Below, piece by piece: positions 4,511 through 6,549 of a DNA stretch of 13,502 bases. The stretch is from Methanosarcinales archaeon (lineage in GTDB: Archaea > Halobacteriota > Methanosarcinia > Methanosarcinales > Methanogasteraceae): positions 1-13,502 of the forward strand of contig JAUVEF010000011.1 of NCBI GenBank assembly GCA_030594905.1, in the 5' to 3' direction. A program made the translations under genes and the position numbers. Numbering within the stretch: the stretch's first letter is position 1; each line of letters begins with the position of its first letter. The notes beneath the pieces were generated by a model, which was not told the DNA's origin, ran no database searches, and was given only the letters and a program-made list of their open reading frames with translations.

Positions 4511-5308
4511 ATGTCACAAAGTACAGGTTTAGTAACCGAACGATATGATCCGAAAGGCATGCGTGCGCATGCATTCCATTTGTTTTCGTGTGTGACCCTT
4601 ATCATCACTGGCTGGTACATGGCAAAGCAGTTCAACATGTGTACAGTGATGGATGCGTCAGCAAACGCATGGCAGCTCATCCCGTATGAGACTGTGCGCA
4701 TGTTTCACATGTTTGTCGCGCTTGTATTTATCATGGCCGTCTGGATATTTATTCCATACAACCTGGTTACGAGCGGGCACCTTCTCTCTGAGATATTTTT
4801 CATACCAGATGCGATCCAGTTGAAGAACCTGTTTCTCAGTCTCTTCAAAAAGGCAGAGTATCCAAGATTCGTCATCGTTGACGAGAAGTCGGGGCATTAC
4901 AAGAATAAACTACACCCGTTTGTCAAACTGATGGTGATTCCTGAGAACATTGCGGTCGTCCTGATTGTGATTACCGGTTTGATCATGTACAATCCCGAAT
5001 TCGCTATCTGGCAGACCACTGTCGAACCGGCGATTCTCATGGGCGTTGGATATGTATCGACATTATTCAACATGTCACCGATCGGATTTGTACGTACGCT
5101 TCATCTGTGGGCTATGTACTGGTTCATAGTCGAACTCGTGCTGCACTTCGGATTCCTTGGAATGGATCCAAGAACCATGAAGTACTTCAATGCAGTCTTC
5201 GTGAACGGCAAGGAAGATATGGATGAATACACCGAGATCATCAGAGAGCCACACAAAGAAAAGAAGCCAAAGGCAAAGGGAAAACATCCCGTGGTCGTTC
5301 TGAATTGA
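4511..5308 (+). CDS. Membrane b-type cytochrome, hydrogenase/formate dehydrogenase gamma-subunit type
   Basis: The 265-residue protein has four main hydrophobic segments (about 22-38, 64-82, 138-160, 195-216) with histidines placed as in di-heme cytochrome b subunits that link a periplasmic or cytoplasmic oxidoreductase to the quinone or methanophenazine pool: His20 before a TG turn in segment 1, His66 in segment 2, and His198 and His212 in the last segment. The segment GHYKNKLHPFVKL before the third helix also resembles this family. The C-terminus is a lysine-rich cytoplasmic tail. The start ATG has a strong AGGAGG site. No hydrogenase, formate dehydrogenase, heterodisulfide reductase or iron-sulfur subunit is adjacent, so its partner is unknown. 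It overlaps the next gene by 4 bases. Confidence 0.8.
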   Translation: MSQSTGLVTERYDPKGMRAHAFHLFSCVTLIITGWYMAKQFNMCTVMDASANAWQLIPYETVRMFHMFVALVFIMAVWIFIPYNLVTSGHLLSEIFFIPDAIQLKNLFLSLFKKAEYPRFVIVDEKSGHYKNKLHPFVKLMVIPENIAVVLIVITGLIMYNPEFAIWQTTVEPAILMGVGYVSTLFNMSPIGFVRTLHLWAMYWFIVELVLHFGFLGMDPRTMKYFNAVFVNGKEDMDEYTEIIREPHKEKKPKAKGKHPVVVLN

Positions 5309-6549
5309 AAATAAAAGGAAAAGCCTGGATATTTGGAGATGACATCGATACCGATGCGATTATACCTGGCAAATACCTGCGCACCACAGATATGCAGGTA
5401 TTTGCCGATCATGTGCTCGAAGGTATCGATCCTGAATTTGCAGGGAAGGTAGAGAAGGGTGACATCATCGTCGCCGGCAGGAATTTCGGATGCGGGTCAT
5501 CCCGAGAGCAGGCAGTGCTTGCAATCAAACATGCGGGCGTCGGATGTGTTGTAGCAGCAACGTTCGCACGTATTTTTTTCAGAAACGCAATAAACATTGG
5601 TCTTCCGATTCTGGAAACGGGAACAACGATCTCATGTGAGCAGGGAGACGCAATTGAGATTGATATCGAGAACGGAATCGTTGAGACCGGTGGTTGTGAG
5701 TATACCGGGTCAAAGATGCCCGATTTCCTGCGCGAGATCCTGCTGGATGGAGGTCTTGTTGCACACCGCAAGAAAGAGTCTGCAAAGGAACGGTTTGGCA
5801 GGCAGTCAGTTGCATATTCAAAGAGCAGCATTTTAGCGAATAAAGATCACTTGAACCTGATCGTTGATCTGGTTTCACCGAAGAGATCTGATAAGGTGCT
5901 TGATATCGCAACAGGGAATGGATTTTTAGCGTTTGAGCTTGCAGACCGGGTTTCCGAGGTCATCGGGTGCGACATAACTCGGGACATGATTGATACCGCA
6001 GAAGTCATCCGTGATGAAAGGAAACTTAACAACGTCACTTTTGAGATGATGGATGCTGAATCCCTTGGGTTTGATGATGGGTCTTTCGATGTTGTCTCGT
6101 GTAGATTCGCATTCCACCATTTTACAAACCCCGGAAAAGTAATGTCTGAAATGGTTCGTGTCTGCAAAAGCGGCGGAACGATCGTGCTAGTGGACGGGGT
6201 TTCATCAGAGGACACTGTAAAGAGCAAGTACCACAATGAAATCGAGCAGATTCGCGATCCCTCGCATGTCCGGCTGTATCCGCAGTCAGAATTGGAAGGA
6301 ATGTTTCGCGATGCCGGACTAAAGATAATTCACGCAAGAAACGGGGATGCGGACTTCTATTTTGATGAATGGATAAGTATCGCCGATCCCGGAGACGAAA
6401 TCGTCGAGCAGCTGCGGCGCACGATGATTGATTCAATCGAAGACGACAAAACAGGTCTCAATGTCCATTTTGACGATGATGGACGGTTGCTTTTTACCCA
6501 TGATACAGTAATTCTGGTGGCTGGGAAACGCTGGATTGTGAATCATTGA
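5305..6549 (+). CDS. Homoaconitase/isopropylmalate isomerase small subunit fused to a SAM-dependent methyltransferase
   Basis: Residues 1-157 are an aconitase-type small subunit (LeuD/HacB): WIFGDDIDTDAIIPGKYLRT, then GRNFGCGSSREQA (58-70). The loop reads YLRT with Arg26, the signature reported for methanogen homoaconitase, which acts in 2-oxosuberate synthesis for coenzyme B; isopropylmalate isomerases lack this Arg. Residues 158-414 are a class I methyltransferase: AKERFGRQSVAYSKSS, motif I VLDIATGNGFLA (198-209), acidic GCDIT (221-225), then CRFAFHHF (266-273). The two parts share one uninterrupted frame; the methyltransferase has no in-frame ATG, GTG or TTG near its N-terminus, so it cannot easily be made alone. 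Start is TTG at 5305, overlapping the cytochrome stop as TTGA. Normal small subunits are about 160-170 residues. The substrate of the methyltransferase is unknown. The large subunit is not in the window. Confidence 0.85.
   Translation: MKIKGKAWIFGDDIDTDAIIPGKYLRTTDMQVFADHVLEGIDPEFAGKVEKGDIIVAGRNFGCGSSREQAVLAIKHAGVGCVVAATFARIFFRNAINIGLPILETGTTISCEQGDAIEIDIENGIVETGGCEYTGSKMPDFLREILLDGGLVAHRKKESAKERFGRQSVAYSKSSILANKDHLNLIVDLVSPKRSDKVLDIATGNGFLAFELADRVSEVIGCDITRDMIDTAEVIRDERKLNNVTFEMMDAESLGFDDGSFDVVSCRFAFHHFTNPGKVMSEMVRVCKSGGTIVLVDGVSSEDTVKSKYHNEIEQIRDPSHVRLYPQSELEGMFRDAGLKIIHARNGDADFYFDEWISIADPGDEIVEQLRRTMIDSIEDDKTGLNVHFDDDGRLLFTHDTVILVAGKRWIVNH

Follow-up and report, generated by a model that had tools for sequence, protein, structure and literature searches.

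Homoaconitase is required for the synthesis of coenzyme B, one of the two thiols in methane activation. We analysed a 13,502-nucleotide stretch of DNA from a Methanosarcinales archaeon (GenBank assembly GCA_030594905.1, contig JAUVEF010000011.1; hereafter the window), in which one reading frame joins a homoaconitase-type small subunit to a class I S-adenosylmethionine (SAM)-dependent methyltransferase. The closest described counterpart of the first part is HacB/AksE of methanogens (MJ1271, structure 2pkp; families NF040625 and NF040604), from which the fused protein differs by its C-terminal methyltransferase, by a score below the equivalog cut-off (206 versus 230 bits) and by the location of its gene outside the hacB-DUF7714-aksF cluster. 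YcgJ and BH2331 (structures 1xxl and 1vl5), the nearest counterparts of the second part, are free-standing and bacterial, whereas the domain in cluster 2c of the anaerobic methanotrophic archaea (ANME) is fused and falls in a compact archaeal group. Another likeness is offered by Tam and Tmt1, class I enzymes acting on substrates or by-products of aconitase-family enzymes, although no match of the fused methyltransferase to such a family model was seen, and no fusion is mentioned for Tam or Tmt1 in the available portions of the sources. Moreover, according to the available part of PMC11237513, some Methanosarcinales join FmdE to a tRNA methyltransferase domain, and thus also a core-pathway subunit to a methyltransferase; however, that subunit and that methyltransferase are different ones, and the same part of the source does not mention a HacB-type fusion. 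A limited search of the open-licence PubMed Central (PMC) literature found no description of a HacB-methyltransferase fusion (a weak negative), and databases list the fused protein under labels that include 'methanogen homoaconitase small subunit' and 'methyltransferase domain-containing protein'. Both parts belong to known families; their joint architecture is, as far as we have seen, undescribed.

Conservation and origin of the fusion

According to profile searches, the fused frame contains an archaeal LeuD/HacB domain and a class I methyltransferase, each of them full (Table 1), bearing out the initial annotation of two complete domains in one frame. In an AlphaFold2 model built from 72 aligned sequences (mean predicted local distance difference test score 90.2, predicted template modelling score 0.80), residues 151-166 form a single helix, with which the LeuD domain ends and the methyltransferase begins. 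Structure comparison aligned the 2pkp (MJ1271) chain as far as model residue 166; hence, the fused chain contains no linker in excess of the MJ1271 small subunit. The free hacB product of the ANME-2a/b type ends in ...DGGLVAHRKKQ, free Methanoperedens methyltransferases begin with MGIKESAxxQFG, and the fusion junction reads ...DGGLVAHRKKESAKERFG. Relative to the free Methanoperedens start (MGIKESA...), the methyltransferase lost only about three residues on fusing. This tight junction had suggested an ancestral hacB-methyltransferase operon, which was not supported, as the two genes were never neighbours in 70 unfused loci (some on short contigs).

The same architecture was found in 61 full-length protein clusters (P0002-P0062; 407-432 amino acids, 72%-97% identity), and the junction is read through in all 21 aligned fused proteins, that of the window included. 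Across the order, 16 of 185 genomes carry the fusion, with both matches contiguous, in the same frame and without a stop codon; one of these (G041) is truncated by a contig end, and another (G047) has an additional short second piece at a contig end. LeuD orthologues (E ≤ 1e-55) occur in 162 of the 185 genomes, and open frames of the unfused group do not exceed 223 amino acids among the matches listed. Ten of the 80 named-genome loci kept are fused (L001-L009, L028), nine from ANME-2 or Methanosarcinales metagenome-assembled genomes (MAGs) and the tenth (L006) from a bin labelled Bacteroidetes, in which the contig is probably mis-binned. The 61 protein clusters and 16 genomes rule out an artefact of a single assembly, and supply the recurrence in related genomes that the initial annotation had proposed to look for; separate genes at this junction, which it had named as grounds for rejection along with occurrence in one assembly only, were not found in close relatives. 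In this respect its interpretation is supported: the fusion is genuine and conserved, includes a small subunit of the homoaconitase type and is most probably translated into a single chain. The fused genomes bear the names Methanosarcinales or ANME-2 cluster archaeon, and the closest full-length relatives, where named, are Ca. Methanogaster (one 'ANME-2c ERB4'), Methanosarcinales archaeon or Euryarchaeota archaeon. Sequence kinship and these few names suggest that the carriers belong to ANME-2c, and the source of the window is probably an ANME-2c-like archaeon.

In the methyltransferase tree (row L100, which has no alignment, left out), the fused copies group as one clade with moderate support (88/87, below the tree's 95/80 mark), and 86% of 200 bootstrap trees require a single change to the fused state. 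Apparently, two conserved proteins that are unlinked elsewhere were joined once and then retained. Ratios of nonsynonymous to synonymous substitution rates (dN/dS) between the window and seven relatives were 0.05-0.10 for LeuD, 0.06-0.10 for residues 148-185 and 0.08-0.17 for the methyltransferase. Four other pairs gave 0.03-0.31, where the top value comes from a junction with very few changes. Purifying selection is thus acting on both domains and on the junction.

The initial annotation had also argued for fused translation from the lack of a usable start codon ahead of motif I of the methyltransferase. This was mistaken, and the argument was dropped, since an in-frame ATG lies at codon 138 in all 14 fused genes examined; there is a further ATG at codon 147 in 9 of 14, and a TTG at codon 183 in the window and one other fused gene. 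Initiation at ATG138 could yield the methyltransferase on its own, preceded by roughly 20 leader residues, such that the fusion would be a gene-model artefact and its halves translated separately. Database rows P0069 and P0070 do begin at the ATG138 and codon 147 positions, and P0071 begins past the junction, but these rows may be contig ends (as may P0067-P0071 as a whole). No Shine-Dalgarno-like motif was seen upstream of ATG138. With no stop across the junction in 61 predicted proteins and 16 genomes, and with the junction inside one predicted helix, we regard separate translation as highly improbable.

The two domains and their distribution

The N-terminal half matches TIGR02087 (archaeal LeuD/HacB) well above the cut-off (217-220 versus 108.95 bits, profile positions 1-156 of 157). 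Its loop reads YLRT, as in the MJ1271 homoaconitase, while the isopropylmalate isomerase 3vba has YLVY; we take this loop to be a determinant of substrate specificity in these small subunits. At E ≤ 1e-55, each of the fused order genomes yields a single LeuD match, and nine of ten fused genomes encode two further free-standing small subunits (the tenth being a mixed bin, G006). In G005, the loops of these two read YLVT and YKYD. Most fused genomes contain two or three full-length large subunits; among the three of G005, L151 scores best against HacA_Meth (514, cut-off 550). Among the small subunits of ANME-2c, the fused one best fits a homoaconitase role. The third LeuD-type small subunit of G005 (L178:1643-2161, the one with the unusual YKYD loop) and its third large subunit (L180:1600-2853) are possibly a two-subunit aconitase; no single-chain aconitase was seen in the fused genomes, except in mixed bin G006.

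The C-terminal half scores 88.6 against PF13847 (gathering score 27) and lies above the cut-offs of PF08241 and PF13649. Motif I is intact in all 14 fused rows, with ATGNG invariant in the 21 aligned fused proteins. Among solved structures, YcgJ and BH2331, two proteins without an assigned function, come closest; the further matches listed are mostly small-molecule enzymes, with two protein N-terminal methyltransferases lower down. The best NCBIfam match is the UbiE/MenG subfamily at 80.8 bits, far below the TIGR01934 cut-off of 158.35, which weakened this identity. Identity with Tam was likewise considered and weakened, as the 20 NCBIfam families with matches at E ≤ 1e-10 include no trans-aconitate methyltransferase. 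The structural matches listed contained no Tam-type structure either, although this does not show that there is none. In ten fused genomes, the next-best match to the methyltransferase query reaches at most 64 bits.

Order-wide, the methyltransferase (E ≤ 1e-35) occurs in 57 of 185 genomes, fused to LeuD in 16 and free-standing in 41. Excluding the ethanotroph GB37, 12 of 17 Methanoperedens or Methanoperedenaceae genomes have it. Among unfused ANME-2 or Methanosarcinales genomes it is present in L023, L034, L039, L040 and L043, and it also occurs in ANME-3 (L048), in the 'uncultured archaeon' genomes L019 and L027 and in one Methanosarcinaceae genome from Zodletone (L037); for some genomes, the labels 'ANME-2a/b', 'ANME-3' and 'Zodletone' rest on tree grouping with named ones. 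No orthologue was found at E ≤ 1e-30 in any of 14 named-methanogen genomes (Methanolobus, Methanomethylovorans, Methanohalobium, Methanococcoides, Methanosalsum, Methanohalophilus or Methanimicrococcus), all of which have the same hacB. The methyltransferase was also not found in L012 and L030 (Methanosarcinaceae archaeon) or in the ethanotroph-type genomes GB37, Argoarchaeum, GoM-Arc1-GOS and Ethanoperedens. When an ANME-3-type copy served as query in a protein search that needs shared words, 151 proteins were returned; among the 120 listed, few of which carry taxon names, the only named taxa were Methanosarcinaceae, Methanosarcinales, Methanoperedens, ANME-2 cluster, Methanogaster and 'Euryarchaeota'. 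Phylum-wide, 6 of 392 genomes matched, five from the order and the sixth (G454, L222) on a very long branch in the tree, although this is a weak negative, with at most six candidates scored per genome and ANME-1 not tested by name. The methyltransferase hence appears largely ANME-restricted within Methanosarcinales (ANME-2a/b, 2c, 2d and ANME-3, plus a Zodletone lineage of unknown lifestyle).

Gene neighbourhoods and other features of the window

A cytochrome b gene lies directly upstream of the fusion in all nine loci with enough upstream sequence (L001 is truncated upstream and not counted), in 3/3 further loci and in the window. Its stop codon is overlapped by the fusion start by 4 nucleotides in ten loci and the window. 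The start codon of the fusion is GTG in 11 of 14 genes and TTG in three. Orthologues of this cytochrome (44%-48% identity) occur once each in the ANME-2a/b-type genomes G015, G016 and G017 (the G016 match contains one TGA), and in all three are followed by a protein with 10-11 CxxCH haem motifs. None was found at E ≤ 0.001 in four of four Methanoperedens, Methanococcoides and Methanolobus genomes. The available text of PMC9012536 describes the Mco cytochrome b of ANME-2a/b as preceding a 7-11 haem protein and assigns it to methanophenazine:cytochrome c oxidoreduction; it further describes the ANME-2c cytochrome b as highly transcribed, with its haem protein elsewhere in the genome. Because its orthologues precede 10-11 haem proteins, matching this description, we identify the upstream gene as Mco cytochrome b. 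The fusion presumably shares its transcript.

Free hacB genes have a different setting. In 13 Methanosarcinales loci, DUF7714 lies downstream in 12 and Iso_dh (LEU3_arch/AksF-like) in 12, with both in 11 (families named from the L016 copies). The aksF context that helps to recognise homoaconitase small subunits was thus found for free orthologues and not for the fused gene. DUF7714 was found in eight of nine fused genomes searched, with neither aksF nor hacB in the fetched flank of any of the eight, while it keeps both neighbours in 2/2 unfused comparison genomes. The hacB-DUF7714-aksF cluster is dissolved in ANME-2c. The ANME-2c DUF7714 copies (L245-L252) are also diverged, with 43%-46% identity to the Methanoperedens copy, whereas copies from two intact clusters reach 63% and 83%.

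Neighbours of the free methyltransferase showed no common theme across the loci examined, and among five Methanoperedens loci a run of neighbours is common to L231 and L233 only. An aldehyde ferredoxin oxidoreductase gene lies downstream, on the same strand and closely spaced, in all five ANME-3- or Zodletone-type loci (L223, L224, L225, L226 and L236, four of ANME-3 type and one Zodletone; Pfam checked on L226 only). In two of four ANME-2a/b-type loci (L227 and L230; TIGR03275 checked on L227), the methyltransferase adjoins a divergent gene for methanogenesis marker 8.

Elsewhere in the window, an archaeosortase A gene adjoins a phosphatidylserine/archaetidylserine decarboxylase-type gene (17-1500, minus strand), and a 354-amino acid ScpB homologue is encoded at 3269-4333 (minus strand). 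Its NCBIfam match ends at residue 163, and its last ~190 residues had no match in the NCBIfam profile search. On the plus strand are a small pyrimidine dimer DNA glycosylase-type protein (PF03013; 8323-8652) and an archaeal GlmU-, GlmS- and GlmM-type gene cluster (8966-13407).

Table 1. Positions of the fused gene, its parts and the adjoining cytochrome gene in the window
Feature	Position	Strand	Basis
Fused coding sequence, 414 amino acids	5305..6549	+	TTG start, TGA stop; open frame and homologues
Homoaconitase-type (HacB/AksE, LeuD family) small-subunit domain, residues 1-158	5305..5778	+	TIGR02087, 217-220 bits; best PDB relatives 3vba, 2pkp
Loop motif YLRT, residues 24-27	5374..5385	+	Alignments with 2pkp (MJ1271) and 3vba
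Joining helix, residues 151-166 (LeuD C-terminus and methyltransferase N-terminus)	5755..5802	+	AlphaFold2 model
Class I SAM-dependent methyltransferase domain, YcgJ-like, residues 158-414	5776..6546	+	PF13847, PF08241, PF13649 above cut-off; 1xxl/1vl5
SAM-binding motif I, VLDIATGNG, residues 198-206	5896..5922	+	Alignment of fused proteins
Cytochrome b (Mco type), stop codon overlapping fusion start by 4 nucleotides	4511..5308	+	Orthologues and available text of PMC9012536

Possible roles of the methyltransferase

We consider it probable that the fusion is a one-time, fixed bifunctional protein, which combines coenzyme B biosynthesis with an independent methylation belonging to the methanotrophic lifestyle. 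A single event in the ANME-2c ancestor would have joined hacB/aksE head to tail with a YcgJ-like methyltransferase gene, of the kind that related ANME lineages carry free; the joined gene immediately follows that of the Mco-type cytochrome b. The N-terminal domain would pair with a separate HacA-type large subunit in the homocitrate/homoaconitate steps, while the C-terminal domain would methylate a separate acceptor (probably a small molecule) that has no part in homoaconitase catalysis. Fusion would fix the production of the two domains at 1:1, and the 4-nucleotide overlap may couple translation of the fusion to that of the cytochrome. The methyltransferase is beside hacB in none of the 70 unfused loci and is missing from all 14 named methanogens, which weighs against an obligatory role in the 2-oxo-acid chain. 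Of the readings offered by the initial annotation, a methyltransferase that may simply share expression with the small subunit fits the evidence best.

Several observations weigh against this interpretation. Fusions often join functionally related proteins, and our proposal of an acceptor outside homoaconitase catalysis is inferred from where the methyltransferase occurs and from its missing linkage to hacB. The fused domain, at 206 bits, falls short of the NF040625 (HacB2_Meth) equivalog cut-off of 230, as does the free ANME-2 orthologue of L043 (213.1), whereas the free Methanoperedens BLZ2 orthologue lies above it (232.6). For the remaining small subunits, loop sequences come from a single fused genome, G005. 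Moreover, the methyltransferase is missing in 5 of 17 Methanoperedens or Methanoperedenaceae genomes and in L035, L050, L053 and L054, and so may be dispensable, or those MAGs may be incomplete.

The position behind the Mco-type cytochrome b could instead reflect methylation of a respiratory carrier (methanophenazine, menaquinone or other), a role suggested mainly because the cytochrome adjoins the fusion. The cytochrome precedes every fused locus with upstream sequence, PMC9012536, in its available text, links it to methanophenazine, UbiE/MenG is the best NCBIfam match, and the methyltransferase occurs in ANME lineages and not in named methanogens. That match is far below its cut-off, however, and in three of three ANME-2a/b-type loci the cytochrome adjoins the 10-11 haem protein rather than a methyltransferase. 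Methanoperedens and ANME-2a/b are also thought to use different carriers, and we consider carrier methylation possible but unlikely. Metabolite repair, in which the domain would methyl-esterify a homoaconitase by-product or intermediate (e.g., an inhibitory trans-homoaconitate-like acid) as a built-in analogue of Tam/Tmt1, is rather unlikely. It would suit the single helix joining both domains and the motif RDPSHVR, which could bind carboxylates and is intact in all 14 fused and all 17 Methanoperedens rows; yet RDxSHxR is missing in 6/6 ANME-3-type, 2/2 Zodletone-type and 4/6 ANME-2a/b-type rows. The lack of a trans-aconitate methyltransferase among the NCBIfam matches, of an orthologue in named methanogens with the same hacB and of the gene beside hacB in 70 unfused loci likewise argues against repair.

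Quite unlikely, in our view, is that the methyltransferase is a hitherto unnoticed marker enzyme of anaerobic methanotrophy in Methanosarcinales (ANME-2a/b, 2c, 2d and 3) that in ANME-2c was built into coenzyme B synthesis to modify or protect coenzyme B or a precursor under methane-oxidising conditions. That the domain modifies a protein (for example, the large subunit of the homoaconitase itself, or methyl-coenzyme M reductase) is very unlikely. Shared methylations are described, in the available parts of the literature, as conserved, common or rarer and not as ANME-specific, which weakened the case for methyl-coenzyme M reductase; a new ANME-2d methylation is there said to need Mmp10-like chemistry, unlike histidine N-methylation. 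In addition, the best structural neighbours among the matches listed are YcgJ and BH2331, then mostly small-molecule enzymes.

In ANME-2c, the small subunit best fitting the coenzyme B route carries a methyltransferase. By its distribution, the methyltransferase itself is a concrete candidate gene for the difference between methane oxidisers and their methanogenic relatives.
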